Source: Atriophallophorus winterbourni (Eukaryota > Platyhelminthes > Trematoda > Plagiorchiida > Microphallidae). Taken from it: a stretch of 64,000 bases of DNA. Location of the stretch: assembly GCA_013407085.1 (NCBI GenBank), contig JACCGJ010001501.1, forward strand, positions 59,353-123,352, in the 5' to 3' direction. The notes under the pieces are model-generated. The model saw only the letters and a list, made by a program, of their open reading frames with translations, ran no database searches and was not told where the DNA came from. Below, piece after piece: positions 1-60,626 of the stretch (positions are counted from its first letter, which is position 1; every line of letters begins with the position of its first letter). The translations under genes and the position numbers were made by a program.

Positions 1-99
1 ATTTTACGTGGATCAAGGCTTGCAGTTTTGAACAATCATAAGTAATTCAAAATCAGAGTGTAGCAATATTATTGCCAATTTATCTCGATAGGTATCACA

Positions 100-1100
100 A
101 TATATTCGGGCTTTTCGTTGTGAAAACTTTGTTTTACGGAGCTTTGTATGTAAACGCTTAAAAACAATATCAAATTGATAGAATTCGAATTGCGTTTCCG
201 ATGGAAACCTTTAATAACTTTTGACCCAGATCCAAAGTTGACCGCATTTGTCGCTCGGTATCCGGTCAAGACGTGTATTACAATTGCTTACCAATTGATT
301 TCGTCATTCTTGTACTTCAAAGATCAATAATTAACGGCTCGCCTAGCGTTTTTTATGCCAACAATAATAGCTTACACAAGCATACTGGACATGGGATGGT
401 ACCGCGAATCCGCATTTTCATTGTAGTTGTCGAGTGATTTTCCGCCAAGCGATTTGACAAAAATTTCTGCACATCAGACAAACAGTGCGGAATGATATAT
501 ATGTCGTTGCATATCTTATATCTTTGTGTTAGATTTTTAAGCCACAATCTCATTCCAACCATTTTTAGTACTTGGCATCCGTTTCGTAGTCACATTTGAC
601 GCAGCTACGTGTTGCTAATATTGATGTCTGTAAACGGATGTCGGGGTTCCCTTTACGAGCTGTTGCTAACGTGCTTGTGATGGTTATGATACTATTTTGA
701 AATGTATTTTCGCCACTTCGATTCCGCAGAATATGTTAAATGATATGACTTACGGCTTACGCACTGAGATGGAATATCTCTCCCAGGCGCTAGGCGTATT
801 CGGGAATGTTTGTTTGCTCATGTGTGGCTGGAGTCCTTTCTTGATATGGCTAGAACGTAAAATCATTGGCGCAAATATAGCATATTTGGCGCCGGAACTA
901 TCTGCACTGATCATTGCCTGGTAAAATCTCAGAATTCTTCATTTGTTTATTTGCGTACTGTACACTAACCTTCTCCCTTCAATTGAGTCTTCTCGAAGAT
1001 TACCAGGCTGCAGACTATAAGAGTTCTGCACTTTATCTGGATCAGACTGCCGGTTGCTTTTTGTTTCTCTATTTTCCATTCACGCTTACTTAATTTACTT
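100..1100. other. Unassigned stretch inside unit copy 1
   Basis: No recognised gene. A 75-codon plus-strand frame (697-924) has a hydrophobic middle and no family I recognise. A minus-strand GTAAGC donor near 275-280 has no exon in a consistent phase. Confidence 0.3.
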
Positions 1101-2730
1101 TTGTGCGGCTGGCTCCATGAGTTGATTAGCCGGATTCATTGATGTCTCGGATCACAACAGCCCACGCACGTCGATCGGAGGCGAGATCGTTGCAGATCGT
1201 GATCCAGTCTCGTTCCTACCTGCGAACTCCGTAGACGGTACGCAGACCCAGGGTGTCTACATCCTCTTTCACAGTTGACAGCCACGTTTTCACTTGACCA
1301 CCTTGCCGCCGACGCCAGGTGCGAGCGGGTTTGGGGTCGAGGACGAGTTTTGGTAGTGCTGTGTCTGTCTTTCGGAGGACGTGGCCAAACCATTACAGCC
1401 TTCGCCGTTGTATGTGAGCGGAAAGTGGAGATAGTCCGCTGCAACGCTCTCGTACGGCTGCGTTAGATACTCGGTCAGTATATCGGATGCCCAAGATTAC
1501 CCTAAGGCACCAATGGTCGAACACTTCTAATGTGAGTACATCCTGTGACCTTAAAGGCCATGTCTCGCATCCATAAAGCAGTACAGGGCGGATCGCTGCT
1601 TGATAAACACGCGTCTTAGTTTTTAGGCTGATCCCGGGCTTGCGCCAAAGGGTGCCTTTCAACTGCAAAAAACGCATTACGAGCACGATCGACCCTTAAC
1701 TTCACTTCATCTTCCGCCTGACCATTGGGCAATATACTTGAGCCGAGGTATTTAAAGACTGGAACGTATTCGATCGGACAACCCTGGACGCGAAGTGGCT
1801 GGATGCCTGGTGTGTCGGAATAAAAAAGCCTTGGTCTTAGCCGCGTTTATCTCAAGACCGACTTTCGCGGCAGTGGCACTAATGCGGTCTAAAACGGTTT
1901 GCAGCATTTCGGTATTGTCGCCCAGAACGACTATATCGTCAGCGTAGTCAAGGTCGGAAATCCATAGATCCGTTGAAATTTGCACCCCTTGATACCCTGT
2001 TAACGCCTGGTTCATTATCCAGTCTATGACATAGTTAAACATAACCGGCGATAACGGACAACCTTGCCTGACTCCTGTGTGCAAGTTAAAATCACGCGAT
2101 TCTTCACCGTAGACACGAACCCGTGCCCTTGTAGAGCTGTAATAGGCTCTGATTAGGTTGACGAGCTTTAATGGAACCCCATCCGCTAGCATGATGTCCC
2201 ATAAACAACCACGGTCTACGGAGTCGAAGGCGGCGCGGAAGTCAATAAAGCAAGCTATCGTTTGCTGTTGATACCGTGCACGGTGCTCGAGGATCCTGTG
2301 CAAAGTAAATATTTGATCTACGCAACCCATCCCATGGCGAAATCCGCCTTGGTTAACTCTGGTGCGCAGATTTCTTTCGGCGGATAACCGAATAAGCAAG
2401 AGTGTTGCAAACACTTCAGCAGCGGTGTCGATTAGAATTATTCAGCGGTAATTGAAGCACACAGATTTATCTCCACGTTTCAGCAGTGGTAGAGTGATAG
2501 ACATCCTTAGTCTGATGGGAAAACTTCCGTCTCCCAGATCGAACAAAACAGCCGATGTAGCGGAGATAATAATACGTCGGCACAGGCTTTAATAACTTCG
2601 ACGGAAATCCCGTCCTCACCTGGCGATTTACCATTCTGCATTCGCCGTAAAACACTTGATATCTCGTATTCTGATGGTGCCTCGCAGTTGACCGGGTATT
2701 CACAGCTATTTATCGGGGAAGTGAATACTG
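1100..2730 (-). mobile_element. RTE-like non-LTR retrotransposon, 5'-truncated and broken
   Basis: The minus strand encodes reverse transcriptase pieces in order: GGFRHGMGCVDQIF, ACFIDFRAAFDSVD (first catalytic Asp present), VRQGCPLSPVMF, and LDYADDIVVLGD with the YADD active site, within 2414-1752; then the thumb and C-terminal part, YGCETWPLR and LRVILGI (1686-1393). Sequence from 2703-2467 corresponds to the upstream RT region in another frame. The style matches RTE-type polymerases common in trematodes and tapeworms. No endonuclease is seen, and frameshifts separate the pieces, so it is dead as it stands. It interrupts copy 1 of the duplicated unit. Confidence 0.85.
1752..2414 (-). pseudogene. 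Reverse transcriptase core fragment (YADD)
   Basis: A 220-codon open stretch carrying RT motifs from the fingers to the palm: the FxDxxxAFD block near residue 58-66, the RQGCPLSP turn near 116, and YADD near 157. Would polymerise cDNA on a nicked target as part of a full-length LINE. Upstream and downstream parts are in other frames. Length is far below the roughly 1000 residues of a complete RTE protein. Confidence 0.85.
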
Positions 2731-3266
2731 CATTGATAGATGACGGGCGGTTCAGTATTAACTATTTAAGAATGATTCACAATTATTTGATAATATATAC
2801 CAACGTCAACCAATCTCGTTCGTGGTTACCGAAAGCTACCGAGAAAAACAACGATTTCTAATCTTTTTGGTCTTTGCGACCATAAATTATTGAATTTCGA
2901 ATCATGAAAACATTTGCAAATATAGTAATTATTTTTCCGAAATATGCAACCATATTTGATTTTTTATATGTTCGTGTGATTTTCGAAAACAGAAATAAAA
3001 CCGTATACCGATGAAATATCATGAATTTTTCCAGCAATTTGTCGTATGCAATTTCACTCAATTTTAACTTTTCGTTTTTATTTCAAATCTTTTTCATTAC
3101 AAAACTACCATTGTGCATAGATCGGCGTCCCAAATCGTAATCATTTACACGCAGAGAATACAATAAAATATTCTAACATAAACAGACAGACCATTGGAAT
3201 TAAATTTACTCGCATTCATTAACATGAGGTAATATATTTTCTATTTGTAAGCATTATGCTGTTTAC

Positions 3267-3311
3267 CTTCAGTGCCAGTTTCTTCAGGAGTCGAGACTGC
3301 CGCCTTCGTGT
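3267..3311 (-). CDS. 45-nt exon of gene 1, duplicate of the 48-nt exon
   Basis: Bounded by AG (plus 3312-3313) after a pyrimidine-rich tract and by the donor GTAAAC. Two bases, fourteen codons and a G; split codon Asp, then TKAAVSTPEETGTE. It is one codon shorter than the 5741-5788 exon, and both remain phase 1. It lies in the older or RTE-interrupted copy of the unit, so it may be an extra exon of the same gene or part of a partial gene copy. Confidence 0.52.
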
Positions 3312-6300
3312 CTAATTGAAATGAAGGTTGGGAAAAGTAACTTCGATTACCGCTTCAATATAAATAGTAAATTTTGTTTTGACATATATTTTTTGAGTGC
3401 ATTTCTTCTATTTTTAATTAGGCTTCAATTATAAATGCGTTTCATATCATTCCCGATTTTAATACAATGCTATCTGATAATTAGGATAACCCGTAGTTCA
3501 ATGAGCCAGATTCAACTGAGAGACAATTGACAAGAGAGAACAGTATTTGCTCTTCCGCAGTTTAAAGATCATGTTTTACATAATACGTTTAACTAAGCGC
3601 TGCAGCGTTAGTTCGCAAATCGCAAGGTTGTTATTTATAAATTTTGTGTATTCAATACGAAAGTGTATGTACCCTAAGTGAAGTTCTTTTCAGTTCTAAT
3701 CCTAATGCGCTGCGTTTGATTATCACCGCAATCGTTATTTATAATTACTTTCTATGCGGATCATAAGACAAAAAGGTAAGTCTAATTTTCTGGGTTATTT
3801 CTCTTATACATTACGCTTCACCGTTTACATTTTTAGTTTTTTTGCTCGTATTAGTTTTATCACGTCGTTGGAAAAACATGACCCATTAATATAGATTTAT
3901 AAGTCTGCATATGTTTTGATACTTGCAACTTGCCGTTCTCCGTACTATCAATGGCATACAATTGCAAAACGGTGGAATCAAAAACCCGTATTTGAATGCC
4001 TTTTCATTCTGGAAACTTCATGATGGGTTTCGTACTGTTTTCACTCCTCTCAAAAGCATAATACGATCAGAATCGCATGCCAGAAGATCGGGATAATATT
4101 TAGCAAGTTGCGCTTGTGTGCACTGATGGGTAATGATGTTATCACCAACCTGTTCAATCTCATGCCCAAATGCACACAGAATGGGATTAAACACAAGATT
4201 ATGAACGAAAATCCAAATTTGCGTGCAATACCATCACACACACACAATCCACGACCGTTTTCGTGCACTTGGCGCTCGTCTGGTATGAACAGTACAATCA
4301 AGATACCAGCGTCAAGTTTACCCTTATTCCAATGTTTCAGTATTTAGGCCCACGTGCAGTCTATGACTGTGCGGCACTTTGACTAATCAGGCTGGTGCTT
4401 TTATACATACTTACAAACTGTTTCAGGGCATGCTTATCCTTATCGTACTTATCCGTACCTGATAGAAAAAACTCGTCATGTGCCGTGTGTGATGTAATTG
4501 CAGGCAAATAGGAATCTTTGTTTTACGCCACATCTAAATGTGTGTAGGCACATGTGACTGAACGGGGAGTTTGTTTCTACTTTAAAAACGGTGTCTTATG
4601 AGAGCAATTTGTCTACATTTGTTCACATATAACGCATTGCTTTTTGTTTTTCGCGATTGCTTAGATGAGTTACTCTCTTGTCAAGAATATCCAGTCATAC
4701 AGCATGCATGTGCTCACTTGCCTATGTCAATGCCGATTACACATTCACGATACGTGAACTAAGATACTGTCAGATACTGCAAGATCTAGAAAGATATCAG
4801 AAAAATTTAATGTTAGTTAGATTTCAGCTTGCTGTCGCAAGAAGCTCAGCAATGATGGCGATGAATATGAACGGAAAATCTGTGCAGAGCTGTTGTTTAA
4901 GCTTTATGCATCACAGGACTGGAACAAATGCGCCACACTAGAAAAGCGTTATTGGTTAGAACTTGACAGTGTTCAGCCTTCAATTTTGCGGTATTTTACG
5001 TGAATCACGGCTTGTAGTTTTAAACAATTATAAGTGATTCCGAATCTGAGTGTGGCAATATTATTGCCATTGAAATTCGATAGGTATGCTGCAACAAATT
5101 ATCAAAACCACTATCTTCTGTAACGTTGTCCACAATCATAAAAACCTACTTAATTGTAACCATGGAGCATAAATTATATTGTGCGTCTTACTATTTGAGA
5201 AGGATTTAGAATTGTTTGATAAAATATATACAACGTCAACCGATCTCGTTCGTGGTTACTGAAAGCTATCGTACAAATTACGATTTCTAATCTTTGTGGT
5301 CTTCGTGACCATAAATTATTGAATCTGGAATCCTGAAAAAATTTTCAAATATGGTAATTATTTTTCCCTAGTATTCAACTATATTTGAATTTTTTATGTT
5401 TATGTGATTTACGAACGCAGAAATAAAATAGTTTACTGATTTACTTTAATTTCCAGCAATATTATTTCACATAATCACTAAATATTAACTTTCAGTTTTA
5501 TAATTTCAAATCTGATTCATTATAAAACAATCATTTTGTTTAGGTCAGTGTCTCAAGTAATAATAGTTTACACGCAGAGAAGACAATATTATATTTTATT
5601 ATAAACAAGCACACCATTGGAATTTTACTACCTATGTTATTTGTAATTCGCATAGAATTCTGTGGTTTTTGTAAAGCTATATGCTATTTAGACCATTACA
5701 TTGAATTGAATTGAATTGAATTGTCAGCGTCACTACTTACCTTCAGCGCCAGTATCTTTAGGAGTCGAGACTGCTGCCTTCGTTTCATCTTATTAACATA
5801 AATGATGGAAAAAGAAAGTTCCATTAGCGTTCCAATATATAGAAGATAAAAAGTAAATTTTCTTTTCACGTTAATTTTTTCAACCGCAAAATTGCAAATT
5901 AGCATTTTTATTCTATTTTGTATTTAGCTTCGATTCTAAATGCTTTTAATAATATTCCAGGTTTTCATGCATTGCGGTGTGGTAATTAGTATAACCCGTA
6001 GTACAAAAAGCCAGATTCAACTAAGGGACAATTGACATGTGAGAAGAGTATTTGCTCTTCCACAGTTTGGAGATCACGTTTAACATAATACGTTCAAACT
6101 TAGCGCTGCAGCGCTAGTTCGCAAATCACAAGGTTCTTATTTATAAATTTTCTGTAGAATTGTATTGTAGAATGCATACATACCCGTCTCATCGGCATCT
6201 ATGTGTTTACAAATATGGTAATTATTACAATCATTTTATAACGGTCACACTAAAGTTTATATAATAAATGATATGTTAAACTCATTGTTAATCTCTTCAT

Positions 6301-7866
6301 TCATATTACATCATTACGTGATTATTTTTACGGAAGGGAAATAACTATTTATTCGATCATTGCTTTTCATAAAATGTTCTTCCTTTGTGGTTATTTATTT
6401 CTTTTTAGATTAAAAACATTCAAGCGTTTTAAAATGACGGATGTATGGAGCTTGATACCAAATTATTATCTAGAATGTTAACATGTGCAAATTTTATAAT
6501 ATTGCACCAAGTAAATACTACAAAATATTGTCTATCACGTTTGTATCTAATACTGCAACCTATGAGATAATGTCTGCTTGTTCTACGGCCAGTTACCAAT
6601 GGCTATGAGAGATGGCAAAATAGTTCGATTAAATATACACAATAACAACGTAGAATGGATAAAAGATACTTTTTTCGCTGAATCATACATTTATACACCG
6701 ATGTCAATTATTAAAAGCATACCGTGTGTTCCCGTGTCAACCGCCACTTCATCCGCAGCTACATAACATCAAGACAATTCATAAATCGAGTGTAGGCTCA
6801 AAATTATTGAAACAATTGCGTGCTAATTTCAATGGGTGGAAAATCATGTCCCAAAACATTTACACTAATGCATATTTGCGATTTATTATTAAATCTAATT
6901 GTGCTCCTCCAGCGAGCTGCATCCACGTTTGGTCTTCCAGCTGCCGTCTTGAATGCAGCAATGAAAGCAGCCAACCAGCAAAATAAAATTGTACAAGGAA
7001 TAGGAATGTAGGCAGTAACAAATATTTTAACGCATTAGTTTCTGAGACTATGCACCTAGATGAATGCTGATGCAGCCCATGATACAAAAATGTTTAAGTA
7101 GAAAACATTCTTGAGATTCTACCCTGAAACAAATATGTCGCTCGTCGATCTTGAAGTATTGTTGAAATTTTTCTCAATATAATATCCTATTCAACAAAAT
7201 TCACAGTTTTAAAAATATAGTTTTAGGCCTAAAATTTAGAATTCTTGTCTATCACGACTGATGAGAATACAGGGTTATAGACGATTTTTGCAAAGCATCG
7301 GTTTCATACATATGGAAAATTTTTTTTAAATATTCTAATAAAATGTCAATAATCGCAAACGTGTAACCGCAATTTCAATTTTGTCTAGAAATGAGATGTG
7401 AATTTACACAAACCTGGTTCGATCAACCTACTTAATGTGTTGGACTAAGTCGGAGTGAAACCATTAATGAAACTTAACTTATTTATTCACACATAATGAT
7501 GACGATTAGGCACATTTACGGGGTTTATCCCTATAATAATATTTCAAAACGGTGGTTTATTGCATGAATCTTATTAAACTGTGAATTATCAGAGATTTCC
7601 GGATACCTAAACGTAATCTGATGCATAATTTTAACCGAATGTTTTTCGATTAAGGGAAATAGGCGGAAAGCGGTAGAGAAATCTAACAACAATCTGCATA
7701 GATAAAATCGACATATAGCCAGATTAACAATAAATAATCCCATCGTATTTACGAAATAAAAATAACTCATTGAATGTAATCACGAATTGCAGCAGTGATA
7801 TCGCTTACCGGTAATCGATAAGAGGACAGCAAGTCCCAAAATTACGATCAAATTATGCGACTTCAT
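3267..7866 (-). CDS. Micro-exon-type secreted peptide gene 1 (spliced, 3' end not found)
   Basis: Five proposed exons on the minus strand: 7809-7866, 6723-6758, 6184-6198, 5741-5788, 3267-3311 (58, 36, 15, 48, 45 nt). The first encodes a signal peptide; the others encode short acidic and Ala/Thr/Asp/Glu/Gly-rich segments. Every internal exon is a multiple of three, begins with two bases that complete a codon opened by a G at the previous donor, and ends in a single G, so all junctions are phase 1 and any exon can be skipped without a frame change. Known family: flatworm micro-exon genes have a leader exon and tandem symmetric micro-exons and make variable secreted peptides. That the product is secreted is inferred from the leader. 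No terminal exon or stop was found; some exons were recognised using the phase rule, so the internal set is less certain than the leader. Not homologous at sequence level to any MEG I can name. Confidence 0.62.
4040..4340 (-). repeat. Hammerhead-associated repeat, degraded copy
   Basis: Shares with the 233-bp monomers the paired GCATGC motifs, the stem-II-like GTGC..GCAC region and the GAAAACGGTCGTGG junction (on the minus strand around 4240-4275). The CTGATGA box is altered to CAGACGA. Confidence 0.6.
4370..4640 (+). repeat. Hammerhead-associated repeat, degraded copy
   Basis: Begins with the family start (GTTTCA..GCATGC near 4420) and contains a drifted core CTGATAG..CTCGTCATGTG near 4460-4490. 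Faces the 4040-4340 copy, making an inverted pair. Confidence 0.5.
4990..6140. repeat. Duplicated unit, copy 2
   Basis: Direct repeat of the unit at 1-3670. The clearest shared stretch begins with the motif around 5220-5280 (2790-2850 in copy 1) and runs through the micro-exon to the sequence before 6140 (3660). Copy 2 lacks the retrotransposon. Confidence 0.75.
5741..5788 (-). CDS. 48-nt exon of gene 1, paralogous to 3267-3311
   Basis: Followed by a strong donor GTAAGTAG and preceded by AG after a T-rich tract. Two bases, fifteen codons and a G; split codon Asp, then ETKAAVSTPKDTGAE. The same exon recurs at 3267-3311 in the other copy of the 1.1 kb unit, with amino-acid changes that keep the frame and the donor. 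A chain of TTGAA pentamers lies just beyond the donor (5700-5722). The plus-strand reading is also open briefly but ends quickly and has no splice signals. Confidence 0.6.
6184..6198 (-). CDS. 15-nt micro-exon of gene 1
   Basis: Bounded by AG (plus 6199-6200, after an AT-rich tract) and the donor GTATGT. Two bases, four codons and a G; the split codon is Asp, followed by Ala-Asp-Glu-Thr. The Ala-Asp-Glu and Thr-Gly pieces echo the 36-nt exon and the 48-nt exon, as if micro-exons arose from each other. At 15 nt, chance cannot be excluded without a transcript. Confidence 0.45.
6723..6758 (-). CDS. 36-nt micro-exon of gene 1
   Basis: Preceded by AG (plus 6759-6760) and followed by GTATGC. It has two bases, eleven codons and a terminal G. 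With the leader's final G the split codon is Ala, then ADEVAVDTGTH. Open in the required frame; acidic and without cysteine. The donor is GTATGC rather than GTAAGT, which is weaker. Exactly 36 nt is a classic micro-exon size. Confidence 0.6.
6770..7800. other. Intron 1 region of micro-exon gene 1
   Basis: No further exon in consistent phase was found. A GC-richer island at 6896-6985 is open on both strands (plus 6820-7011, minus 7087-6860); it stands out in base composition but carries no recognisable domain. Confidence 0.3.
7809..7866 (-). CDS. Leader (signal-peptide) exon of micro-exon gene 1
   Basis: Reads MKSHNLIVILGLAVLLSIT then a single G before the donor GTAAGC (plus 7803-7808). A Lys at residue 2-3 is followed by a hydrophobic core of about 13 residues, a typical eukaryotic signal peptide. 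The ATG is chosen because it opens the hydrophobic run and because the related exon at 37990-38044 starts with the same Met-Lys-Ser. An AT-rich TATA-like stretch lies about 36-45 bp upstream (plus 7902-7910). The exon ends in Thr-(G), exactly as in the paralogue. Confidence 0.75.
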
Positions 7867-35140: not shown

Positions 35141-35489
35141 TGAGATTTTAGATAGAGTTATGTTATTCCACTAGATAGGCAGCCTTCATGAACGTACGAT
35201 TTATGCTTGCAAACTGACTTCTGGCGCCGGTCTAGAACCCCAATTCGTTTATATGTAATTATAAGTGGTTCCACCGGGTTACACTGTACCAAGCGTGCAT
35301 GTCGGGACCTGGAATTGGTTGTCAAAGGCTATAAGAGACCCGCGACATTACACGATTTCTGGAATTAGGAGCTTATCCCAAAAACCGCTCCGTCTGACAA
35401 ACGTGGAACCTAATGATGGATTTTCGTACTTGAACAATAGTTCCGGCGCTAGAAACCAATAATTAAAATTTGACACGTATAACACGCTT

Positions 35490-35603: not shown

Positions 35604-35639
35604 TTGGTGTGTTTGATGCAGACATCGTGTCACCTTCGC
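35604..35639 (-). CDS. Candidate 36-nt (or 6-nt) micro-exon of gene 2
   Basis: A strong acceptor (T-rich, ending TCATAG) precedes it. With the donor GTATGC the exon is 36 nt, phase 1, reading Gly then EGDTMSASNTP. Alternatively an internal donor AAG/GTGACA makes a 6-nt exon (35634-35639), also phase 1. The donor context is weaker than in the better exons. Confidence 0.33.
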
Positions 35640-38044
35640 CTATGAAAATCAAGAAAATATTATATGTTAATTTATTGTTTCGAAAATTTTATAAAGATTG
35701 CAACCTTCGATTTTTTGAGCCGGAGATAATGCACTAGATCCTAGATACGCTGTTTCCGGATTATATTTGATAGAATTGTTTCATCTTTGCTAGAATGTTT
35801 GTTATTTTGTATGTTATTTTTATGATGGATTGCGGTTAGAAATTTTTAATTATTTTGAGATTAACACAAGATGTTGAGGTTTGATGAAATCATATTGTGT
35901 TCATACGTAAACACTTGAAGATGACAAAGTTATTTTGTTAAGCCTACCCGTTGTACTGCGAGTTTAATGAAGGAGGTAACTCGTGTGAAATTAAATGGTG
36001 AAGACTTGAGTGTATACAAATCTTGCAAACAAACACTTATATATTTTGGTGCTCACATCCTCATTAGTAACAAACACTACTTGTTTAAGGCTGATTACCT
36101 TCATCTGGTTGAGACAGTAAGATCATTCACAATGAGCCCTGAAACACAGATCTAGCTAGCAATGCTAGTGATGTGTAGGAGATAGGAAAGCGAGGACCGA
36201 TATATATTGGCTGATAAGAACCGTCCTGAGTACTTAACCAAGAATTACTTTGTGATTTTTTATTTGAACATGGTGGATTTTTCGAGAAACATATTTGGAA
36301 GTACATTTTGTTTAAACTTAAAATGTATATCGCATAAAAAATTGTACAGCTATTTGCTCTCAACCAAATCCTTGAATCTATAGTTTTTAATCTTGAAAAC
36401 TGAAATACCATACCCGTATATAAAACCAGGGTCTCCGAAAGTTAAATTAAGTTGTAATTTGAGCAGCACAATTCTTTTATGAAAAAACTTATATAGGCTG
36501 AATATTTACTTTAAATAATGCCTAAATTATAATTGCCTATGTAACACTGTACGAAATAATACATCAGTCGGCTAAATGTTTGTGGTTCCACGAGATCGGA
36601 TTCAGTTATACTTATTTATAGTAAAATAAAATCATTCGAATTTTCCTGACATCAATTTTGCGGACATTTTTCCAACCTCATCTACATATCACAGTGATAT
36701 AATATAAATATAATTGTATTCACACAAACAAATTATCAATGAACTTTTAAATTTTGTAATCTTCACCCTTTCACATTGCAAAATTAATATTGTAATAAGT
36801 ACACAATCTTTATGTCAATATCACCAGATATAAACTTATTATATGAAATTGCTGCATTGAAACCTACTTAATATTGATTTTAAAAAAAATGTCTGATGCA
36901 AAATACAATATGCGTACCGGTTGAAGCTGCTTCAAGAGTTCTATTAACTGCAACTGTAAAAATGGCGCTTTTTAATTATCATAAACACATCCTCTAAATT
37001 ATGCGTGATTAGTTTTATCGATTTACCATTTACAGTAGGACAAGTATCATGTTATTTTCTCTTGATTACTCATATTAACACGGTGTTAAAATTCTAGAAT
37101 TAAACGTCAGAGGAAAAGACCGGGTGTTTGGATATTTTGCAGTTTGAAAAATTGTCTATAATGCATATCATTTATCTACTGCGCAACTCAGCTTAATCTT
37201 TTGGCATTTTATCTCGATTGTTCCCTCTAATGAAGGACTCGTAAAGACACCCAGTTTTAAGCAATATACTGAAGCTTACACATTTTGGATCTAAAATGCA
37301 ATCTCGCATTTGTAACGTCTATATCATCGAAAATCGAAATTTTCCGCTGGTTTCCTAAGTATGGCATACGCGCATCAACTTAGATAACAGCAACTAAGAA
37401 TACTTATAGAAAGGAGAACGCGAGACAAACTTGAGCTTGAACATTAACTACTCTTTACTGCTTCTTTCATTGGGATAACTTATTTCAACTCTGAAATGAC
37501 GGCCGAATCCGCGGATAGCGTTGCATATTGGGTATCCTAACCGTAAAATGAACTATGGCAATTTCTTTCATCCGGTACGTGTATGGTTTGTTTGGAATTT
37601 TAAGTTTTACGATTTCATGAACTGAACTATTTTAGCTATGGCAAAAACGAACTTCACTATTACGTGACAGCTAATGCTGCCTTCGCCTCCACCTGTTGAC
37701 AAAGCATTTCAGTCAATCATTCGGACGATCCATATATTTGTTCCATTGTTTCTAACCCGTGGTTATTGTTAACTGTAATGCTTTTTTAAACCATGGAGCT
37801 TGAATCTTGAATCTCCAAACATATATAGACGATTAAACAGTGTTATGTATTATTATTATATCAAGGATTTTAACATTGTGTGTTGGTACCATGACAGAGA
37901 ACCATTGTCGTTTTGATGTAGACAAGTAAAGCTTAGTTCTGGGCGGTTAGTCAGTAAAATGCGTAATTCACAAAAAAATAATTACTTACCGGTGAACGAA
38001 AATTGCACAAGACCGATAACTATTAACAGGGTGAGCGATTTCAT
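35604..38044 (-). CDS. Micro-exon-type secreted peptide gene 2 (spliced, 3' end not found)
   Basis: A second minus-strand gene of the same design: leader exon 37990-38044 (55 nt), a 36-nt micro-exon 36918-36953, and two weaker candidates, a 6-nt exon at 36099-36104 and a 36-nt exon at 35604-35639. Leader and first micro-exon join in phase 1, like gene 1. The micro-exon contains an Asn-Arg-Thr N-glycosylation sequon, consistent with a secreted product. The gene is separated from gene 1 by 30 kb of duplicated and transposon-rich DNA; the homologous leaders say the two are paralogues. A CR1 3' fragment sits in the first intron (about 37,640-37,810, plus). The 3' end and stop were not identified. 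Confidence 0.6.
36099..36104 (-). CDS. Candidate 6-nt micro-exon of gene 2
   Basis: Six bases (ATGAAG) between a pyrimidine-rich acceptor ending CCAG and the donor GTAATC. In phase 1 it would add Asp-Glu. Six-base exons are known in schistosome micro-exon genes, but a match this short is easily accidental. Confidence 0.25.
36130..36900. other. Intron region of micro-exon gene 2
   Basis: AT-rich; the 94-codon minus frame at 36127-36411 shows no domain and is not supported as coding. No other exon in phase was found. Confidence 0.3.
36918..36953 (-). CDS. 36-nt micro-exon of gene 2
   Basis: Preceded by a good acceptor (T-rich tract ending ACAG; plus 36954-36957) and followed by the donor GTACGC. 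Two bases, eleven codons and a G; the split codon with the leader G is Val, then AVNRTLEAAST. Ends in Thr-(G) like both leaders. Same size and phase as the 36-nt exon of gene 1. Confidence 0.6.
37640..37810 (+). mobile_element. CR1-like 3' end fragment
   Basis: Reads ..AAFAST.. then the 3' tail shared with 49210-49400 (GTGGTTATTGTTAA..TGCTTTTT). Lies in intron 1 of gene 2. Confidence 0.6.
37990..38044 (-). CDS. Leader (signal-peptide) exon of micro-exon gene 2
   Basis: Reads MKSLTLLIVIGLVQFSFT then G, followed by the consensus donor GTAAGTA. The hydrophobic core is Leu/Ile/Val-rich. Shared with the gene 1 leader: Met-Lys-Ser, an Ile-Val-Ile-like core, Gly-Leu, and a terminal Thr-(G) before the donor, although the nucleotides have diverged. 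A TATAAAT motif lies at plus 38076-38082, about 32-38 bp upstream of the ATG, which would leave almost no 5' untranslated region; if it is the promoter, transcription starts next to the ATG. Confidence 0.78.
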
Positions 38045-43750: not shown

Positions 43751-44300
43751 TACAACCCACATTAATTATGAAATTGGCAACACATTTTGTCTTTTTATAG
43801 TAATATATCTTGGCTTTAAAATTTATTTAGAAAGAATGATACAAAATGCGACATATATCCCAGCTGACAGATGGACTAGCAATAGAAACAAGTGGCTTGC
43901 TGGAGCGGACGACTGGCGAATTAAATTCAGTTGATCTCGCGTAGATTGATTAAAAAATTATCAAGCATGGAAAAATGATTATAAAACTTCGATGCCCTAT
44001 AACTAAATTCATTTGCTTGGAAGATACGTGTTTAGTAAAATTATTGGAGCGATTGTAATGCGTATTTTTATTCTATGTTTCAGGAATCTTCATCTTACCT
44101 ACTGCACAAACTTCTCATGCTGGATGTTGTTTTAATGAGTCGATGCTTCAATTAAGTTCTCATATGCTTCTTTCGCAGATGAATTTACTCACATGTAACC
44201 AGTGATCCCGTTGCTTTTTGTAACGGTCTATATTGTGTCGGGATAATTCTTAACCAAATGTGGAAACCAGCGCCTTCTAGACTAAATAGGCATCAGCCAA
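43750..44300. other. Unassigned AT-rich region
   Basis: No gene recognised. A minus-strand donor-like GTAAGA at about 44096 is noted among the rejected items. Confidence 0.3.
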
Positions 44301-44550
44301 ATTTCAGACACTTTGGTCAATCGAAACGCTGTAAAACATGAGAATTTACGCGATTATGATGTACATCCATTGTCGACAACAAAAGACAAAGATCAACGAC
44401 AATAAATCATAAATTGTGACATATGTTGGTGCAAAAGAGATTGTTTTTGCGGTATCAAACCATTAAGTTATTCATAAAGCTGTTGCGCATGAAACATTCA
44501 TCAGAATAAAAAGTACAAACATGCTCGACATCGAACGAAGGAGACCAACT
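44300..44550 (+). mobile_element. Two family A 3' end fragments
   Basis: Family 3' ends (GATGTACATCC..GTCGAC..) near 44360 and a second, more drifted, ending near 44550, as at 12830-12900. Confidence 0.55.
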
Positions 44551-45060
44551 GAACAATCATTTTAAGGACATTTTAGAACGTTATATGAATCTGGATTTTA
44601 TACTATATGTAACAATGATTTACTAAGATCAAAATATTAAAAAAACAATTTTCTTCATTTTTTATACTAATTTTGCTTCAACATCAAAGAATGAACAACA
44701 TCTACACGTGTGAACACATGTGATTTAACGTGTTGGTCATACTTAAATTTTCCATCAGTAGCTTGAAAGTTGAAACCTTGTAATGATTAATCATTTTCGC
44801 CAAATCAAAGCACATTTTCACAAAATTGTTGCAAGTGAAATGAAGGTTTTAATTTTATCTAAACATCGCGTTAACCGTTAAACATAGTGGATGCACTTTC
44901 ATATCCTTAAATCGACCTGTGTGTTCTTAGATTTCAAGTTTCAATATAACGACGTTTTCTGACCGTTACGCGCTATTTTTCGTTTCAGTGATATTCACCT
45001 TTTTACATTATACGTTATGTCATTGAATGGAAATTATACAAATCAAAATGAAGCAGAAAT

Positions 45061-45090
45061 ATAATATATATATATATATATATATTATTT
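45061..45090. repeat. TA microsatellite
   Basis: TA run at the same place in the duplication as 13395-13411, but longer. Confidence 0.9.
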
Positions 45091-45094
45091 ATAT

Positions 45095-46200
45095 GAGTGA
45101 ATTACAACCGCAGAAATATTGCGACATATGGAAACGAACAAAATTTTGTCAGTTGCCTTGCAGGGATTTCGCAGAAATCGCTGCTGTTTATCAAATTTCG
45201 CTGATAAGCTTAAACGATCGGGTGAGGTTTGTAGTCGCGGAGTTTTGTATCAATGCGTACTACCTGGATATTTCTAAAGCTTTCGAAATATTCGATCATA
45301 ATTTACTTATGAACAAGTTAATGAAACATGATATTTTCTGGAATAATTGTTAAATTGATAAGTGATTACCTCAGCATCAGACACATTAGAGTTCGGGTGG
45401 GAGGCGTATTAGATAAGAAAATCGATGTCACTAGCAGTGTTCCAGAAAAATCAGTGCTTGGACCAATACTGTTTCTAGTCAAAATTGGAGATATATCAAT
45501 AACAAATGATAGTAAGGTGGTATTAATTGCTGAAGATATAAAAGTATGGATTTGAATCAGTAATGCTGATCATTGTATTTTGCTGCAAAAGAATTTGGAT
45601 TATTTGTACAACTGGTCATCGGAAATTAAACTGACGTTAAATGTGCAAAAGTCGCAGATGATTCATATAGGTAGTGAACTTGGATTTTACTATCCATAGA
45701 AGCTCGGCTACAAAATCTTGGAGTACACCGAAGAAAAATGAACTGTTTGTCTTGATTTGCGGTACGTTGAAAAATGGTCTACATTGCGAAGCCATTCAGA
45801 GAATTGCGTCTTGGCAGCTCGGCATATTACGGCATATGTTTTGACGTTTTTCTCCGAGGTGTTTTCCTTTCATTGCGAAAACATATATACATCCGGTTTT
45901 GGACTATACCGCTTAATCCTGGAAACCATGGCTCCAAAAGAATCTTACTTCTGGATCGCATATATCAGAGAGCTTCTAAGCTTGTCATTGGACTCGAAAA
46001 TACATCATTCGCTTGGTTACTCAGCAGACTGGATCTGAGGACACTTGCGATCTAATTCTCGCATACAAAATACTTACTGCATTCTCCCACCTATTGGACT
46101 CATTATTTTAACGTTGATATCCAGCAAAGGCGGTGACCATGATCGCAAGTTTGAAATACTACACTCCAAGCGGAACTGCAGCAGGTGTTTTCATTCGTAA
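45095..46200 (+). mobile_element. CR1-like LINE fragment (lineage 2)
   Basis: YYLDISKAFEIFDHNLLMNKL (45260) carries the first RT Asp block (an intact Asp-Ile-Ser-Lys-Ala-Phe run). Then VLGPILFLVKIGDI, VVLIAEDIKVWI (AEDI where ADDI is usual), and a thumb region with several stops to about 46100. Counterpart 13640-14700. Confidence 0.72.
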
Positions 46201-46209
46201 CGTTTGTGT

Positions 46210-46930
46210 TTCGTTTGGAATATTTTACCTGCCCATTTGGTAATCTCCAACAGTTCAGTTATATTCATTTGGTAACTTAACGATAATATGAGAGATAATC
46301 CAAATTCGTTCACAAACTAATAATAAACTATAATCGTCACATTGAATTTTTGTTTTTATTTATACAAATATACATTTGTACCTATAGTTCGACTCTGTGG
46401 TTATTGTAAGTTTAATTGCTTTTTTTATTCATAAATCATGAATATTGAAACTAAACTCGAAATCTAACGTTCAAAGCATCCTTAGGATTGATTTAATACT
46501 ACGATGCGAAATAATGCATACTCAATATCATCATTTGAATCATTTTATAATACAGTGTGTAACATCATACAAGCAGACATTCAGAGATTCTACCAATTAA
46601 CAATTTCAGTATTATATGACGCCAGTATTTTTATTATGTACAGGTCAGTTTTTTATAAAATGCCCTATTCGAAACTAATTCACAGCCCTATCGTCCAAAC
46701 TTTGATTTGGTAATCGGACAGGTATTTTTGTACAACGATTTGACGGCATGGCAAGTAATCAATTCAACTATACGTGACATTACATGATTGTGTTATTTCT
46801 TTTTTCAGAACGACTGTTGACAATTCTATAATAATTGTGACGCCATGTGATTTTTGAAACCAGTATGTTCGTAAATTTTGAATTCAACTGATATTATTTT
46901 TTTTCTGATCAATTTATTTCTTTTTTTTAT
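46210..46930. other. Insert region, CR1 tail and unassigned DNA
   Basis: 46370-46460 resembles the CR1 3' tail. The 69-codon frame 46504-46713 shows no domain. Confidence 0.4.
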
Positions 46931-46939
46931 TCGGCTTAT

Positions 46940-49400
46940 TCAGGTTCCCTGCAATCGTTCAAACATAAATTCAAGGAGGTTATAGAATTTGCTTCACTAC
47001 ACAATCACATTAACAGCCAACTCGCTGGCGGGGTCTTGACCATCCTTCAATCCTTGACCTTGTCTTAACGCCTGAGGCAACCGCCGTAGAGGGCATACAA
47101 TACCTGGCACCACTGGGGAAGAGTGATCTTGTTGTGCTTTTGTTGGATTATGAATGTAGTGCCGAACGTTTGTGTGAACAGACGAAAGTCACAAGTAAAA
47201 TACAATTTGAATCTTTAAATATCAGTCTCCGGGATGCACACACTCATGAGATTTATACAATGGATCCTGGCTCATATTACAATCCGTTTCTAAATTATCT
47301 CAATTCGAAGATTTACGAAAACTCGATTTTTGTACCACACAAATGCAGCTACAACAACCAGTTTGTTATTCGGATTAGAACGAAGAAATGGTTAGCTGTT
47401 AAGCGAGAGTCTTGGGTAACTCATAAGAAGTTTGGTACGGAAGAAACTTGGAAACGATTCTGTAAGATACGGGATCAAGTCACTACTCTTGTAAGAGAAG
47501 ATCGCATGCAATTCCAATGGAACTTGCATAAGAAAATGGAAAAGAATCCTAAGCTTCTCTACAAGATAGTAAATGAACGATCAAAGATCAAACCAGGTGT
47601 ATTCTCTGTACTAACACCTAATGGATTGGCCCACACTGCCCCAGATACCGCTGACGCTTTAGCAACGTTTTACTCATTTGTCTTCAATCCCAAGCGTTGT
47701 ATACCATATCAACTTTCATCAAGTTCGCCACATTTCAAATTAATAAGTGAAATGAAAATCAACGAATACATGGTTGGGCGGGAACTTTGTCGACTAAACG
47801 AGAAGAAGTCCCCTTGCGCAGACAAAATTACCCACGCCGTACTTCGCTGGTGTCGCGTTGCTTTGACTGCTCCTCTCACTCGCATATTCAGTTTCAGCCT
47901 AAATGAAGTAAAAATACCACCGCAATGGAAAGCAGGGATGATAACTCCTATTTATAAAGGCGGTAGCCGTTCAGACACAGCAAACTATAGACCGGTAACG
48001 TTACTTCCGGTGATCTCCAAATTAATGGAACGCATTGTGACTGCGAGCATAAGAGAACATTTTGAAAACCAAAATATTTTGACCGCAGCACAACACGGTT
48101 TTCGAAGAGGTCGTTGCTGTTCATCTAACCTTCTTACAACGTTCGGGGATTGGACCAAGGCACTAGACGAACGTGAGGCTGTACATGCTTGCTACATCGA
48201 TATTTCCAGAGCTTCCGATAGAGTCAACCATGACATCTTAATTAAAAAGCTCGAATCCTCAGTAATAACGGGAATATTGATGAATTGGATAAGGGACTAT
48301 CTTACTGATAGACACGTCCAAGTTCGCGTTGACAGCACCTAATCTAGAAAAATAGACGTCACGAGTGGAGTTCTGCAAGGCTCGGTGCTTGTACCTCTTC
48401 TATTCTTGGTGTATATGAACGATATAGTAGAGGATATTGGATGCAACTTGATACTAATTGCCGATGATATTAAAATTTGGAAACGTGTCAGGTCTGTTAA
48501 TGACTGTATGGCATTACAACGGGATCTGCGCATTTTATTTCGTTGGTCTTAGTTGAATGAGTAACCATTTAACCCTGCGAAGTGTGAGATGATGCAGCTT
48601 AAGAAATCTCTGCACCACACGTATCAGCTTGGCATGCAAGATCTCGTCTGGACCACAGCAGAAAAAGATCTGGGTATCTGGGTTTCGTTTAACCTTAAGC
48701 CTGGACAGCATTGCCGAATGGTGTACAATAAAGCTTGCCGTATCTTGAGTCTTCTAAAAAGAATATTCCGGATTTTTACGCCCGAAACCCTACCCCGGGT
48801 AATTAACACGTATAAACGTCCTGTTATGGAATATTCCATCCAAACCTGGGCACCATGGCTGAGGAAGGACATCGAACTATTTGACAGGATTTATCATCGT
48901 GCTACAAAGTTGGTCTCCCGGTACAGAAATTTGACTCTCACAGAGCGAATGTTAAAACTGAACCTACAAGATTTTACCCGACGGCGGATACGTAGTGACC
49001 TCATGTTGACCTTCAAAATCCTGCCTTCTGTAAACCATCCCCTTAAACACTTGCTAAAGCCCAAAGACCTTACTAGAACACGAACACATTCAAAGGCTTT
49101 AAGCATTCCGCATTCTCGATTGGATATACGTCGTAATTTTTTCTCCGTAATAATTTGTTTCACTTGGAAATATTTGCCTGAAGAAATCACACGATCAGAA
49201 TCTGTTGAGGTTTTCGCCTCCAAACTCGATGAGTTTAAGACGAACCATGCGGTATACGAAAGTCCCTTTTGATTTTTGAGATATTTTATATTTTTTATAT
49301 ATTTTTATTTGTTCCATATACATTGTAATCCTATGGTTATTGTTAAGCTCAATGCTTTTTCTACCATACAATTTTCGGAGTTCTTAGTTCTTAGTTCTGA
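46940..49400 (+). mobile_element. CR1-like LINE, 5'-truncated, best preserved in window
   Basis: Begins in the end of the endonuclease region (..VEGIQYLAPLGKSD..), runs through the linker and RT as one frame to 49272, and ends with a 3' tail near 49400. In that frame there are only three stops, so it is comparatively young. It interrupts copy 2 of the large duplication and has no counterpart at 14.7 kb. Confidence 0.9.
47134..49272 (+). pseudogene. CR1-like reverse transcriptase, one frame with three stops
   Basis: RT motifs in order: SPCADKITHAVLRW (RT 0), MITPIYKGGSRSDTANYRPV, AAQHGFRRGRCCSSNLL, CYIDISRASDRVNHD (first catalytic Asp; Ser-Asp where Phe-Asp is usual), stop at 48340, then DVTSGVLQGSVL, LIADDIKIWK (catalytic ADD), stops near 48550-48562, then AEKDLGIWVS and the thumb ending near 49272. 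About 710 residues, against a typical 650-700 for a CR1 RT plus thumb. With stops it cannot make a full product. The 5' endonuclease is almost entirely missing. Confidence 0.9.
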
Positions 49401-49409
49401 ATACTAAAA

Positions 49410-49640
49410 TATGTATCAATTCCAGTTTTTGTTTGAAATATTATAAATACTCTGATGCCGACAACAATGGTACATTTTATTCATTTTTACGAACATAAAG
49501 ACCTAAAGACAGCAGCTAACTATCGGTTGATTAAATATTTACAATCTCTGCGTAAGCATTCTGCACCATGATAGACATGATCGAAAATCGATATTTCATG
49601 ACTTATTACAGAATTCTGTTTAGCATTGCTACTTAATAAA
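49410..49640. other. Unassigned
   Basis: Nothing recognised between the CR1 3' tail and the next repeat. Confidence 0.3.
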
Positions 49641-49649
49641 AATCAGTAG

Positions 49650-49860
49650 CAAATTGAAAAAAATTTCTGTCTATACACGAATCCAATGATTTGTATTTCC
49701 ATCGCACGCACCCTACGAACGTCTTCATCGTGTTCGAAATCACCAGCTAGGAACTGTACGGTCAGGATCCACACGACTTGAAACAATGGATACCGCGCCA
49801 TTGTTTCTTGAATTACAACCAACCTGTTCATTCACCTGTTTCAAAACAGATCTTGATTGG
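49650..49860 (-). repeat. Hammerhead-associated repeat, degraded
   Basis: Minus strand reads TTTCAAGTCGTGTGGATCC, then a drifted core CTGGTGATTTCGAACACGAT and GTTCGTAGGG. The 62-codon minus frame over it is only the repeat. Confidence 0.55.
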
Positions 49861-50509
49861 ATTAAACCAATGGTCATGCATATAAATACTCATTCAAGTT
49901 TATTGTTATCACACAGACACATACACGATTGCTTATTTTGCGATATTAGCATTCCTTATGTAGTGGATTTAGATTTTGTTTCACGTGCATTGTATCAATG
50001 AACGAATGGTAAAGAACTTGTGCTGGTGATGGATGAGTACAAATGCAGCATGTAACGAGAGACCATTAACAGTATTTATGGACGAGAAAAGTAAGAAAAC
50101 TAGCGCTATTTTCAGATTCTTGATGCATATTGCGTTTTTTGATGTAAAGTTTGGCTCGGCACTTATTCACCAAAGTTAAAGATCACTCTGTTTTCCTCCG
50201 AAACACATAAGGCTCCCGCATTTACAAGAACATCGAGCTAAATAACATTTCCTGATGCGGCTTATTTTCAAGAAGAATTAGTTTAACATTTTGACTCTGA
50301 ATTACATCAGTTTCAAACTTGTTACAATGTTTCTGGTGAGCCAAATAATAGGCATATTCATCGGAAAAGGTCGTCCATAACGATGGAAAACTATGCAATA
50401 TCAAAGTTACATATCTTCTGAAAATGTCGTTTTAATTCAAACTGTTCAGATCTGTTATTAAATTCATTCGGTCGATGTCGACCATGAGTATATATACGCA
50501 ATCACTTTA

Positions 50510-50760
50510 CAATTTCAAACGCATGCGTATCCCAATCCTAGCGCTTATACCGGATAAGTGCACACAGCAAGATACCGGTCGTGCGTTGTGCGCGTGATGG
50601 AAATGTATGCAAATAAACTTTTGAATGTCTGTGTTTCATAAGCTCACAGTCTTTCATTTTCTGCAAAGCTCAAGGTGTCAGAGTTCGAGTTAATGTTACG
50701 CAATATTTCTTTTGCACGTCAACATATGCTGATACACTGGGTCACACAGCTGGATGCCGA
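50510..50760 (+). repeat. Hammerhead-associated repeat
   Basis: Core near 50548-50585: CGGATAAGTGCACACAGCAA then GATACCGGTCGTGCG. The GGTC/GTGC side is intact. Counterpart of 15110-15360. Confidence 0.6.
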
Positions 50761-51889
50761 GAATTATGCAACTTCTCGATAAAAAAGAAAAATATAACAT
50801 TTCTATTTGAGTATTTATATAATCAAAGTTCAAAAGTGTATGAGATATACATCGCTCCCAATCTGTTTTGGAAAAGGCACTTACAAAAAATCTTTGTCAT
50901 ATACTGCCAGACAAACTTCCTTCAATTCGTCAATCTATTCCCCGAACATATTTCTTTAAACCCAAGTTAGTAACGTTAATAGGTTTTTTAATTCAACTGT
51001 AAATTAGAATTATTTATCGTCATCTTTATGATTTGAAACCGCTGTCAGAATTTATTACCAGTTCGATAGCAATGTGTGAAAACTTGCGTTTTTAGACAAA
51101 TTAATGTACAAAAATTTCGTATCTCCTTTCTTCTAGTTTCTTCTATTCAAACCAGTGGCAATTTGTCTATTGAATATCGACATCCTATGTTTTCAGAACA
51201 AGAATATTCATTCAATTTCCAGATGTAACCCCAATCTACCAATTTTTATGTAAATCTCAAAGGCTTCTGGCCCGTCAGATCAAAGTCACAGAGCATATTG
51301 TCTTCATTTTTTGTCTTTTTGATTGCAACAACATATGTCGTCATCACAAAATTATAATATTCCACAAACAGCCCTTCTACACAGGTCTAGGAATATAACT
51401 TAATGCCGGGCTTAGCAAATTGATGAACAAGAGGTACATCCGTAGGGGGCCATGATTTTGATTTGTCCACACATGATGATATTGACCCCGGCCGATGTGA
51501 ATATGATGCATATTGAGGTGTTATAACTCAGGAATAGCGATATATGTTAGTACAATTGAAGCTGAGAACATAGGGTGAGAAGAAGATCGGCAGCGTTTAT
51601 TTGTAGCGCCATCTGGCGATACGCCGAGTTGTCGGAGATTAATTCAAATTAGTTTGAAAGGGATACAGTTTGAACAGCAATCAGCAACGATGTCCGTGAG
51701 AAGTAGGAAGTAGATATTGGCGTAACAAACGCCGAAGATTTGGATAACATATATAGCGAAATATAAAGGGAATGAAATGCTAGAAGCTAATACGCAACAA
51801 ACTAGAAGATAATTGGTCATGTTCCTAATATATTATAATGTTACATGAAACTAACTCAGGCATACATTAGTGCAGTAATAGTTTCATTA

Positions 51890-52270
51890 GGATCCCATTT
51901 TTTCTACTGCTAAAGTTTCCCGAACCCGATGACTCGTCGATGGTAATCATTTATCAAAAACGTAATTTAGTTTGAATGCAAATGTATTTGAGTATTTCGA
52001 TGAATCGATCATGCGAACTATCATGCTCGCTGCAAAAGAAACAATAAGTTATTCGATGAAGAAAAACAAAAAAATGATGACAAAACCTCATTTAAAACTA
52101 TTCAAAATTTTAGCATGCGAGTAATTTTGATGCAAACAAATTCACTTAAATACACTGGAATTATATATACTGAAAACCATAATCGTTATATAAGACATCT
52201 CTTTTGAGACGAAATCTTGATGCAAATAATAAAAGTCAGTTTGAAGATAAAATCTCAAGCAATGTGATGT
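51890..52270. repeat. Dispersed repeat R2, copy 3
   Basis: Third copy of 12260-12690. Confidence 0.7.
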
Positions 52271-53620
52271 ACATTTATCTTTTTATTAAATCTATCTTTC
52301 AGAAAATCGTCACATAATTTTTGAGATGTGTCATTGTAGAAAATTATTGTTAAGATGATTATAATGTTCTTTCAAGATTATTTCTAGAATGTCCTTTTAG
52401 GCAACAGAGATTTCGCGTGAAACGATTCTGATGCGACCATAGAGAAACAAAAATTTCAGATCACACATGAACCGCGAAGGAAGAATTCATTCGCCCTAAA
52501 TTAATTGAGCAATTGAAATGACGTGAAAAATTACGTTTTTTTGAAATAATGCTTTCGATATGATCGATCACTTTCTCTTTAATACGTTGTGCAAACGGAA
52601 ATCTAGAAAAACTTAGAATACAGTAAAATTCTTCGTGTTTTACAATTCGAAATTAGTAGATAATTTTTAAACACAGAACCGGATGTGAAATCGTTTTTTT
52701 AACTATAGCGTCGAATGCTGTATATTTTAAGTACTACAATGAACACTGTACAACCAATAGCTACGTCGTGTCCCTTTTGATAATAAATGTGGTAGCAGAG
52801 CTACGTTTGCTTAAAAACCGCTTCGTCAAACAAATCCTCATCAAAGAGAAGTTGAGAGGAATGTATTATACTGATTTCAACGTATTGCTTTTATTCCGAA
52901 AAAAGACCAATTAGACAATTAGATTATTGTGAGCATTATTGCATCTTTAGATCAGATAAATGATTTGAAAAGTTTCGACATCTCAAGCACGTGAAAAAGA
53001 AGAAATACTTCTCTTGTAGTTTACAATTTGAGAGCATCTTTTCCCAATTCATGGAGTCAAAATCAGCAACAATGTTATTTCATTTTACCGCAATTGTTGT
53101 CTGACCTTTGTTCAACGTCCAGATTTCAACACAATACCGATAAGATCATTTGGAATATGACCGGTTACCATTTTGTTGTCATGAACCAGGTATGGTAGTA
53201 AGGTGACTTAAATTATTTTAAATCTATCTGAAAGAGGTGGGTTTAATAAAATATGAACAAATGTACAATCGATATTGAAACCTTTCCAGAAAATGGTGGT
53301 CAGGTACACGATACGTAAAAATGCACATACCGATAATCCTGAAATCGCGTAAAAGTTTATTTAATAACTTTGGATTAAACTTTTTCGCACTTAAAATGCT
53401 TTAGTCAGGCATTTTATTATTACCTGAACAACATATTTAAACCAAAATTAGCAGAAAGAATATTTTGAAATAATTCATTGGATTGCTCTATGCAACAAAT
53501 GTAAGGCTGTATGAATTCAATTGTGAAATGTTTTCTAGTGAATAAAAACAAAAGCATTCGCAATAGCGATCTGCATTCGATAGAATGTACGATTGTATTT
53601 ATGAATAAAAAAGCACCTTT
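52270..53620. other. Duplicated non-coding segment
   Basis: Collinear with 16870-18080; no gene recognised. Confidence 0.4.
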
Positions 53621-53629
53621 TTATGTTTT

Positions 53630-54280
53630 TCAATGACCCACCCTACGACAGGTATCTTGCTGTTTGCACTCATCTAGTAGTGACAGTAGGATCAGGATAC
53701 GCATGCACATGAATCACTGCAAGATTTGTACAACCGTTGCGTTTGTATCCCACGGTTAAATAAGGTTGACAAGACCCACCTGCTCAATCACATGGGTAAA
53801 CGCACAGGACATGGAGATTATGATGAGTCCTTTGTTTCTAGCGCATGCAGATCCTGCTCGTACTGGTCCTACATGATGTGCGCAATAAGCACGAAACACA
53901 CATGAGATGTGTTATGGATATGCATGCAAATGAGCACTTAGGTTCATGGATATGGGTTTAACCCTATTATACATTTGTTTGGACACATGTGATTGAACAG
54001 GTTTGTCGTACCACACTCAAGTAACAGTGGCATACAAGCGCCTAATTGTTCACCATTCCTCCACTGTTTCAAGCGCATGCGGATCCTGATCATACCGTCC
54101 ATACCTAATGCGAACAATCGTTACTAAACCTAAGTGGGTAAGTGTTGAGAAATGCAAACAAATATGTATCTTGTGCAAGAGCATAGGTTTTAAACCAATC
54201 AACATATGATTGGACGCATGAAGTTGAACAGGTTGGTGGTACCAACAAAATCAACAGTGGATTAGAATCGCAACTCGTTC
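53630..54280. repeat. Hammerhead-associated repeats: one minus, two plus
   Basis: Same arrangement as 18085-18720 and 27120-27680. Plus-oriented starts near 53840 and 54065, about 225 bp apart. Confidence 0.6.
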
Positions 54281-54349
54281 ACCATTGTATTTAATTTGGC
54301 AAACATTTCGCATAAGTTTACTTATTTTGTTTAAATCATACAGAACGAT

Positions 54350-54619
54350 TAGTATTGTTTGGAATATTTGTAGTTCGAGTCGTTGTTGTGGCTTACTTGA
54401 ATTTGTTCTCTGAGCTTGTTGAGCTTGCATCGGACGTTTTGTTGCCAGACTAGGCAACATCTTCAGCGATTGTTGGCAAATTGACTGCTCGAAGTGGCAC
54501 TGACGATGGTATTTCGCCGGTATTTGCCAACAATCGCTAAAGATGCTGCCTAGTCTGGCAACGAAACTTCCGATACAAACTCAACAAGCTCGGAGAACAA
54601 ATTCAAGTAAGCTACAACA
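54350..54619. mobile_element. Fold-back insertion with 13-bp target duplication
   Basis: Arms 54384-54481 and 54522-54619 are about 98 bp, mostly complementary, around a 40-bp spacer. The 13-bp CATACAGAACGAT stands on both sides (54337-54349 and 54618-54630). The other three blocks have a single version of that site and no hairpin, so this is an insertion. No open frame of note inside. Confidence 0.85.
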
Positions 54620-54691
54620 TACAGAACGATATTTTTATTTATTTATCAAACACGGTTTGCGTAATTTAGTGGAGCTTTAACCTTCACTCAC

Positions 54692-54818
54692 CATTTTTCC
54701 TTTGTTTTTTCGATTTATTTTTCACTTTTTCATTCTTCAGGTTCGATTTTTCAGTTTTTGGTTTAGAGCTCCATTTCGTCGGTTTCACCTTAGGTTTGAA
54801 ACCTTTAGCTCCCCTCAT
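54692..54818 (-). CDS. Basic exon, block 3
   Basis: 127 nt: ATG, 42 codons, one G, then GTGAGTG. Open throughout; starts MRGAKGFKPKVKPTKWSSK and is about 40 percent Lys/Arg, like a nuclear or nucleic-acid-binding tail. The upstream sequence offers a possible acceptor (TTTTCAG, 7 bases before ATG) that would put the exon start in a different phase, so ATG as a start is my preferred reading. The equivalents in blocks 2 and 4 share KP..W and the donor. Confidence 0.45.

Positions 54819-60623: not shown

Positions 60624-60626
<3 letters not shown>

Follow-up and report, generated by a model that had tools for sequence, protein, structure and literature searches.

Micro-exon genes as the closest described systems

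Micro-exon genes (MEGs) form a class defined by architecture, the hallmarks being alternative splicing, a secreted product and small symmetric exons set between long introns (PMC4350168; PMC10526429). Their exact role is described in a review as still unknown (PMC10526429). For schistosome MEG products, evolution is reported to be faster in the mature regions than in the signal peptides (PMC4350168), and retroelements have been reported near MEGs (PMC10526429; PMC4350168). MEGs are reported from tapeworms too, and a rule in the same paper calls for at least seven exons, half of which are micro-exons of <70 nt, with four consecutive and with lengths divisible by three (PMC7653826).

The window analysed here, a stretch of DNA of 64 kb, is predicted to carry two tandem MEG-type genes on its minus strand, each with a phase-1 signal-peptide exon followed by short symmetric phase-1 exons, a reading to which we give a probability of roughly 0.7. 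As described for schistosome MEGs, the two models have a signal-peptide exon, short symmetric exons divisible by three and long introns, a predicted secreted product without known domains, clustering, duplication and nearby retroelements (PMC10526429; PMC4350168). They differ from schistosome MEGs in that their peptides matched none of these in the searches made and in that exon skipping is predicted only. An earlier note on this DNA had proposed one gene, with the architecture of schistosome micro-exon genes; the architectural part of that proposal is supported and gains a second model, absent from that note, that ends in a stop codon on the same strand, and the specifically schistosome part is neither supported nor excluded.

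Predicted exons of gene 1

Five exons of gene 1 are in view, and four of them are consecutive micro-exons (all predicted). Scores are from generic splice-site matrices of our own, with no training on the species, and the hydropathy and helical-moment scales were likewise our own.

7809..7866, minus strand: leader exon, 58 nt, MKSHNLIVILGLAVLLSIT plus one base (phase 1); donor 9.8, peak 10-residue hydropathy 3.4
6723..6758, minus strand: micro-exon, 36 nt, AADEVAVDTGTH, phase 1-1; acceptor 2.8, donor 7.6
6184..6198, minus strand: micro-exon, 15 nt, DADET, phase 1-1; acceptor 0.3, donor 9.8
5741..5788, minus strand: micro-exon, 48 nt, DETKAAVSTPKDTGAE, phase 1-1; acceptor -1.2 (weak), donor 12.0; in the upper copy of a duplication
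3267..3311, minus strand: micro-exon, 45 nt, DTKAAVSTPEETGTE, phase 1-1; acceptor 2.2, donor 6.8; copy of the 48-nt exon in the lower unit

The leader and four micro-exons had been claimed at these coordinates, with canonical AG and GT flanks, micro-exon lengths that are multiples of three and phase 1 throughout, and this is borne out on the sequence, as is the placing of the leader donor GT, which starts at 7808. The exon coordinates, as predicted, leave introns of 1050, 524, 395 and 2429 nt. All 16 exon-skip combinations are open; the leader and all four micro-exons end in G, so that the junction codons are GNN and never a stop. A further micro-exon at 4411..4458 (minus strand; 48 nt, GTDKYDKDKHALKQFV) was considered and not accepted, as it (acceptor 2.5, donor 5.6) falls below the cut applied to the others and is at the level of scan noise. 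A terminal exon resembling that of gene 2 was sought within the window and none was found; the end of gene 1, with further exons, is presumably located below position 1, outside the window.

The mature part in view is Thr- and Ala-rich, with 14 acidic, 3 basic and 12 Thr or Ser residues among its 48; it is likely disordered and may be O-glycosylated.

A tandem duplication that carries two of the micro-exons

The 48- and 45-nt exons of gene 1 lie in duplicated DNA, just outside of which the 15-nt exon (6184..6198) is placed.

1..6156, minus strand: tandem duplication in two units, spaced about 2.5 kb, carrying the 48- and 45-nt exons; the match of the lower copy runs off the window

Positions 2761-3650 match 5190-6156 at 73%, and positions 1-95 match 4993-5087 at 84%. 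In the upper copy, some 100 nt (5088-5189) have no counterpart in the lower copy, within which the match is interrupted from about 96 to 2760 by a gap that contains a retroelement, recognized by a reverse transcriptase ORF at 1752-2414 on the minus strand (RVT_1, E 5e-27). The simplest reading is that these would be tandem units about 2.5 kb apart, with the lower one split by the retroelement.

Aligned with each other, the 48- and 45-nt exons differ by one in-frame gap of 3 nt and by five substitutions in 45 aligned positions, two synonymous and three nonsynonymous, numbers that are too small for selection to be judged. Frame, AG, GT and openness are retained in both. The identity of the duplicated exon is 89% (40/45) vs 82% and 78% for its flanks, but an extra conservation of the exon was rejected, with 106 of the 835 45-column windows of the duplication being equally conserved.

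Repeats and retroelements are also found elsewhere in the window. The regions 10186-34500 and 44300-63520 have many blocks in common (~60-84% identity, longest alignment ~4.5 kb) that are partly reverse transcriptase-like. At 47134-49272 on the plus strand there is a reverse transcriptase element with two ORFs, first one of 402 residues that contains RVT_1 (E 2.4e-13) and then one of 227 residues with no Pfam match. Two head-to-tail copies of ~236 bases, 97% identical and 233 bases apart, occupy 63531-64000 and so reach the window end, and this repeat resembles short repeats at ~3965-4304, 18058, 53828 and 56413.

A second predicted gene, with its stop codon in view

On the same strand and 30 kb from gene 1, a second leader opens an apparently complete model of four exons that ends in a stop codon.

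37990..38044, minus strand: leader exon, 55 nt, MKSLTLLIVIGLVQFSFT plus one base (phase 1); donor 11.3, hydropathy 3.15
36918..36953, minus strand: micro-exon, 36 nt, VAVNRTLEAAST, phase 1-1; acceptor 1.3, donor 7.8
35604..35639, minus strand: micro-exon, 36 nt, GEGDTMSASNTP, phase 1-1; acceptor 4.2, donor 6.2
35348..35448, minus strand: terminal coding exon, 101 nt, PELLFKYENPSLGSTFVRRSGFWDKLLIPEIV after a split codon; acceptor 2.4; phase 1, open to TAA

The predicted product has 75 residues, 33 of which are encoded by the terminal exon, upstream of the stop TAA at 35350-35348. The three junctions are all phase 1, the introns are 1036, 1278 and 155 nt long, and all four skip combinations are open. 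In the exon that begins at 36953, an inner AG 6 nt in (acceptor 2.7) would allow a 30-nt form. Neither AATAAA nor ATTAAA occurs within 1 kb 3' of the stop; ATATAAA is present at 35254 and AGTAAA at 34826. A strong amphipathic helix was sought in the tail of the product, and just a modest moment was obtained (0.47 over 11 residues).

A 76-base unit is present in two head-to-tail copies on the minus strand (starts at 38265 and 38189, within 38265-38110), immediately upstream of where the gene 2 leader begins, and is adjoined by a long AT dinucleotide run. An apparent remnant of another reverse transcriptase-like element, recognized by eye from its motifs, also lies just upstream of gene 2, at 38980-38380 on the minus strand.

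Likeness between the two genes

In global alignment the two leaders score 13, and the next best score is 3.5 among 938 open ATG frames, a set that includes both leaders. Judged by this alignment, the two leaders are related to each other. The mature parts show slight likeness only, with seven of the eight exon-peptide comparisons at chance level or weak. The best pair is the second micro-exon of gene 2 and the 45-nt exon of gene 1, which have DT..A..TP in common and were equalled by 27 of 2000 shuffles; as the best of eight comparisons, this match may be taken as only a hint of relatedness. For the same gene 2 exon and the 48-nt exon, 65 of 2000 shuffles were as good, and for the other six comparisons 301-1575 of 2000. 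A recognizably conserved leader, with mature parts that are nearly not so, would be in line with the faster evolution reported for schistosome MEG mature regions.

Chance occurrence of leaders and micro-exons

Dinucleotide shuffles contained a mean of 0.78 comparable micro-exons, with at least three in 47 and at least four in 9 of 1000. The scan used for the shuffles scored the gene 1 region at 3 because an edge limit excluded the donor at 3267; the region has 4 once this donor is included. In the real sequence, at least four phase-1 candidates were present in 3 of 54 windows, the gene 1 region's own windows being among those counted. In a wider count, at least four micro-exon candidates were obtained in 12 of 207 control windows, which overlap and come from both strands, those on the minus strand avoiding the two genes. 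The cuts in that count (donor 6.7, acceptor -1.25) were placed just low enough to retain the weakest sites of gene 1 (6.8 and -1.2) and so favour the region; the donor of the gene 2 exon at 35604..35639 (6.2) falls under the same cut. The row of micro-exons was rejected as self-sufficient proof, as the 12 control windows equal or exceed its count. The gene 1 region also has four candidates in phase 0, three of which are the same segments as phase-1 micro-exons, so that the phase-1 reading depends on the leader.

Leader-type exons, with a start codon, a strong hydrophobic core and a strong donor, give stronger evidence. The 64 kb contain two, each of them on the minus strand, vs four in 60 shuffled strands (0.07 per strand), of which three were phase 1. 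An Asp/Glu-Thr-Gly theme that had been pointed out in the gene 1 peptides recurs in 4/4 of the gene 1 micro-exons and in 0/24 control candidates. The comparison is partly circular, because the theme takes its name from the very exons tested, and the four include a pair of copies. As duplicates, the 48- and 45-nt exons count as one observation, not two. The leader of gene 1, the related leader of gene 2 and the shared peptide theme raise the case for the predicted genes above chance, and the row of exons alone is not decisive.

Homology searches

The peptides had been said to belong to no named family, which holds in the protein, Pfam and PDB searches made. Neither model matched a protein at E <=10 among 5.8 billion sequences, in an exact-word search of a kind ill suited to short, fast-evolving peptides. 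That search gave only one short-word candidate for gene 2 and two for gene 1; its set includes some Schistosoma and Trichobilharzia proteins and may or may not contain the MEG proteins. Gene 2 has no Pfam and no PDB match. Gene 1 has no PDB match and no significant Pfam match; the sole Pfam line, New_glue, was not accepted (E 0.032, 14.4 bits vs a cut-off of 31). Rfam and tRNA scans of the 64-kb window gave nothing useful.

For the reverse transcriptase of one retroelement, 60 of 352 candidates were matches at E <=0.001, the best of them unnamed environmental proteins (70%, 65% and 61%). Identities are 53% over 89% of the query to Octopus vulgaris, 46-56% over about half the query to the cuttlefish Acanthosepion and 42-43% to Artemia; among tapeworms 52% to Spirometra and 53% (80% of the query) and 51% to Schistocephalus solidus; and among blood flukes 55% (60% of the query) to Trichobilharzia regenti and 47% (73%) to Schistosoma haematobium. 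This distribution is loosely compatible with a flatworm source, although no proof of one, and does not point to a schistosome.

Comparison with described micro-exon genes

A first coding exon with the features of a signal peptide is present in both genes, as judged by hydropathy and a donor scan. Set against the rule in PMC7653826, gene 1 has a run of four micro-exons, as predicted exons, and five exons in view vs the seven required; gene 2, with two micro-exons and four exons, lies outside the rule and is MEG-like only. A post-leader motif described for MEGs (FL, two hydrophobic residues, F, six residues, W, a polar and a basic residue; PMC10526429) was not seen in gene 1 on comparison by eye, and in gene 2 just the second half of it is present (FVRRSGFWDK), positioned at the C-terminal side.

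The tapeworm MEGs of Hymenolepis microstoma are alike in architecture and in forming a tandem family with conserved sequence that starts at Met, but their consensus has, by eye, no resemblance to the leaders of gene 1 and gene 2 (PMC7653826). In MEG-8 and MEG-9 of blood flukes, as in gene 2, the terminal exon encodes a hydrophobic C-terminal part, but that exon is described as phase 2 in those genes and is phase 1 in gene 2 (PMC5825161). MEG-26 is likewise a short secreted peptide, for which an amphipathic helix is predicted (PMC5825161), in contrast to the tail of gene 2, with a moment of <=0.47 over 11 residues.

Alternative explanations

Points against the MEG-type reading, besides the limits given above for the exon count, the phase, the conservation of the duplicated exon, the generic matrices and the peptide theme, are the weak acceptor of the 48-nt exon, the failure to find a homologue in the searches made, the lack of a terminal exon for gene 1 in view and the presence of only two micro-exons in gene 2. 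Three other explanations were considered. Only the two leaders and gene 2 might be real, with some or all gene 1 micro-exons being chance AG...GT segments, in which case gene 1 would be a dead copy or would draw on other exons, most of them past the start of the window. Such a possibility is consistent with the equal candidate count in 12 of the 207 control windows, the opening of three segments in phase 0 also, the weakness of the acceptor at 5788, a conservation of the duplicated exon that is not above that of its flanks and the retroelement within the lower unit. The peptide theme (4/4 vs 0/24 controls), the donors of 9.8 and 12.0 and the fact that the sole indel in the duplicated exon is of 3 nt and in frame all argue against it, and we consider this explanation unlikely, though the foremost of the three.

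It is more doubtful still that these are two ordinary genes for short secreted peptides or prohormones that have phase-1 exons without regulation by exon skipping, their likeness to MEGs being convergent. In gene 1, phase-1 introns of 395-2429 nt, four in succession, lie between exons of 15-48 nt; this is the published MEG build and argues against convergence. In favour are the mere two internal micro-exons of gene 2, the incomplete agreement of either gene with the published post-leader motif and the lack of a homologue in the protein searches. That the entire pattern arose by chance in repeat-rich, non-coding DNA is very improbable, given that the two leaders are related and that one of the models ends in a stop; the repeat-rich nature of the window and the lack of a significant match in the protein sets searched are the points in its favour.

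Proposed products and implications

The reading of gene 1 and gene 2 as MEG-type genes is retained, and they are most likely additions to a known architectural class, with predicted peptides that match nothing named in the searches made. If so, both genes would be transcribed, with exons skipped to differing degrees, and the leader would route the product into the secretory path. Each gene 1 micro-exon would add 5-16 residues with the frame kept, and for the part in view skipping could then generate as many as 16 variants. The products might be secreted and mostly disordered and, like known MEG products, face a host or the outside. By analogy with these, we propose that they act at the host interface as secreted peptides that are variable, acidic and perhaps O-glycosylated.

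More tentatively, and with the odds somewhat against it, the locus may represent a MEG family that is unrelated to any named one, from a lineage of flatworms other than the well-studied blood flukes, and that is caught growing. A micro-exon would have been copied by the 2.5-kb tandem duplication, the copy would have diverged to a different peptide, and gene 2 would be a near-minimal relative with two micro-exons.

If the species is a well-annotated schistosome, the genes may already be annotated under another name. Gene finders easily overlook MEGs, the origin of which is unclear. If the species is parasitic, the products are candidate secreted host-interface proteins. The combination of a short relative and an exon array that grows via segment duplication would, if true, give a concrete case of how such an array originates.
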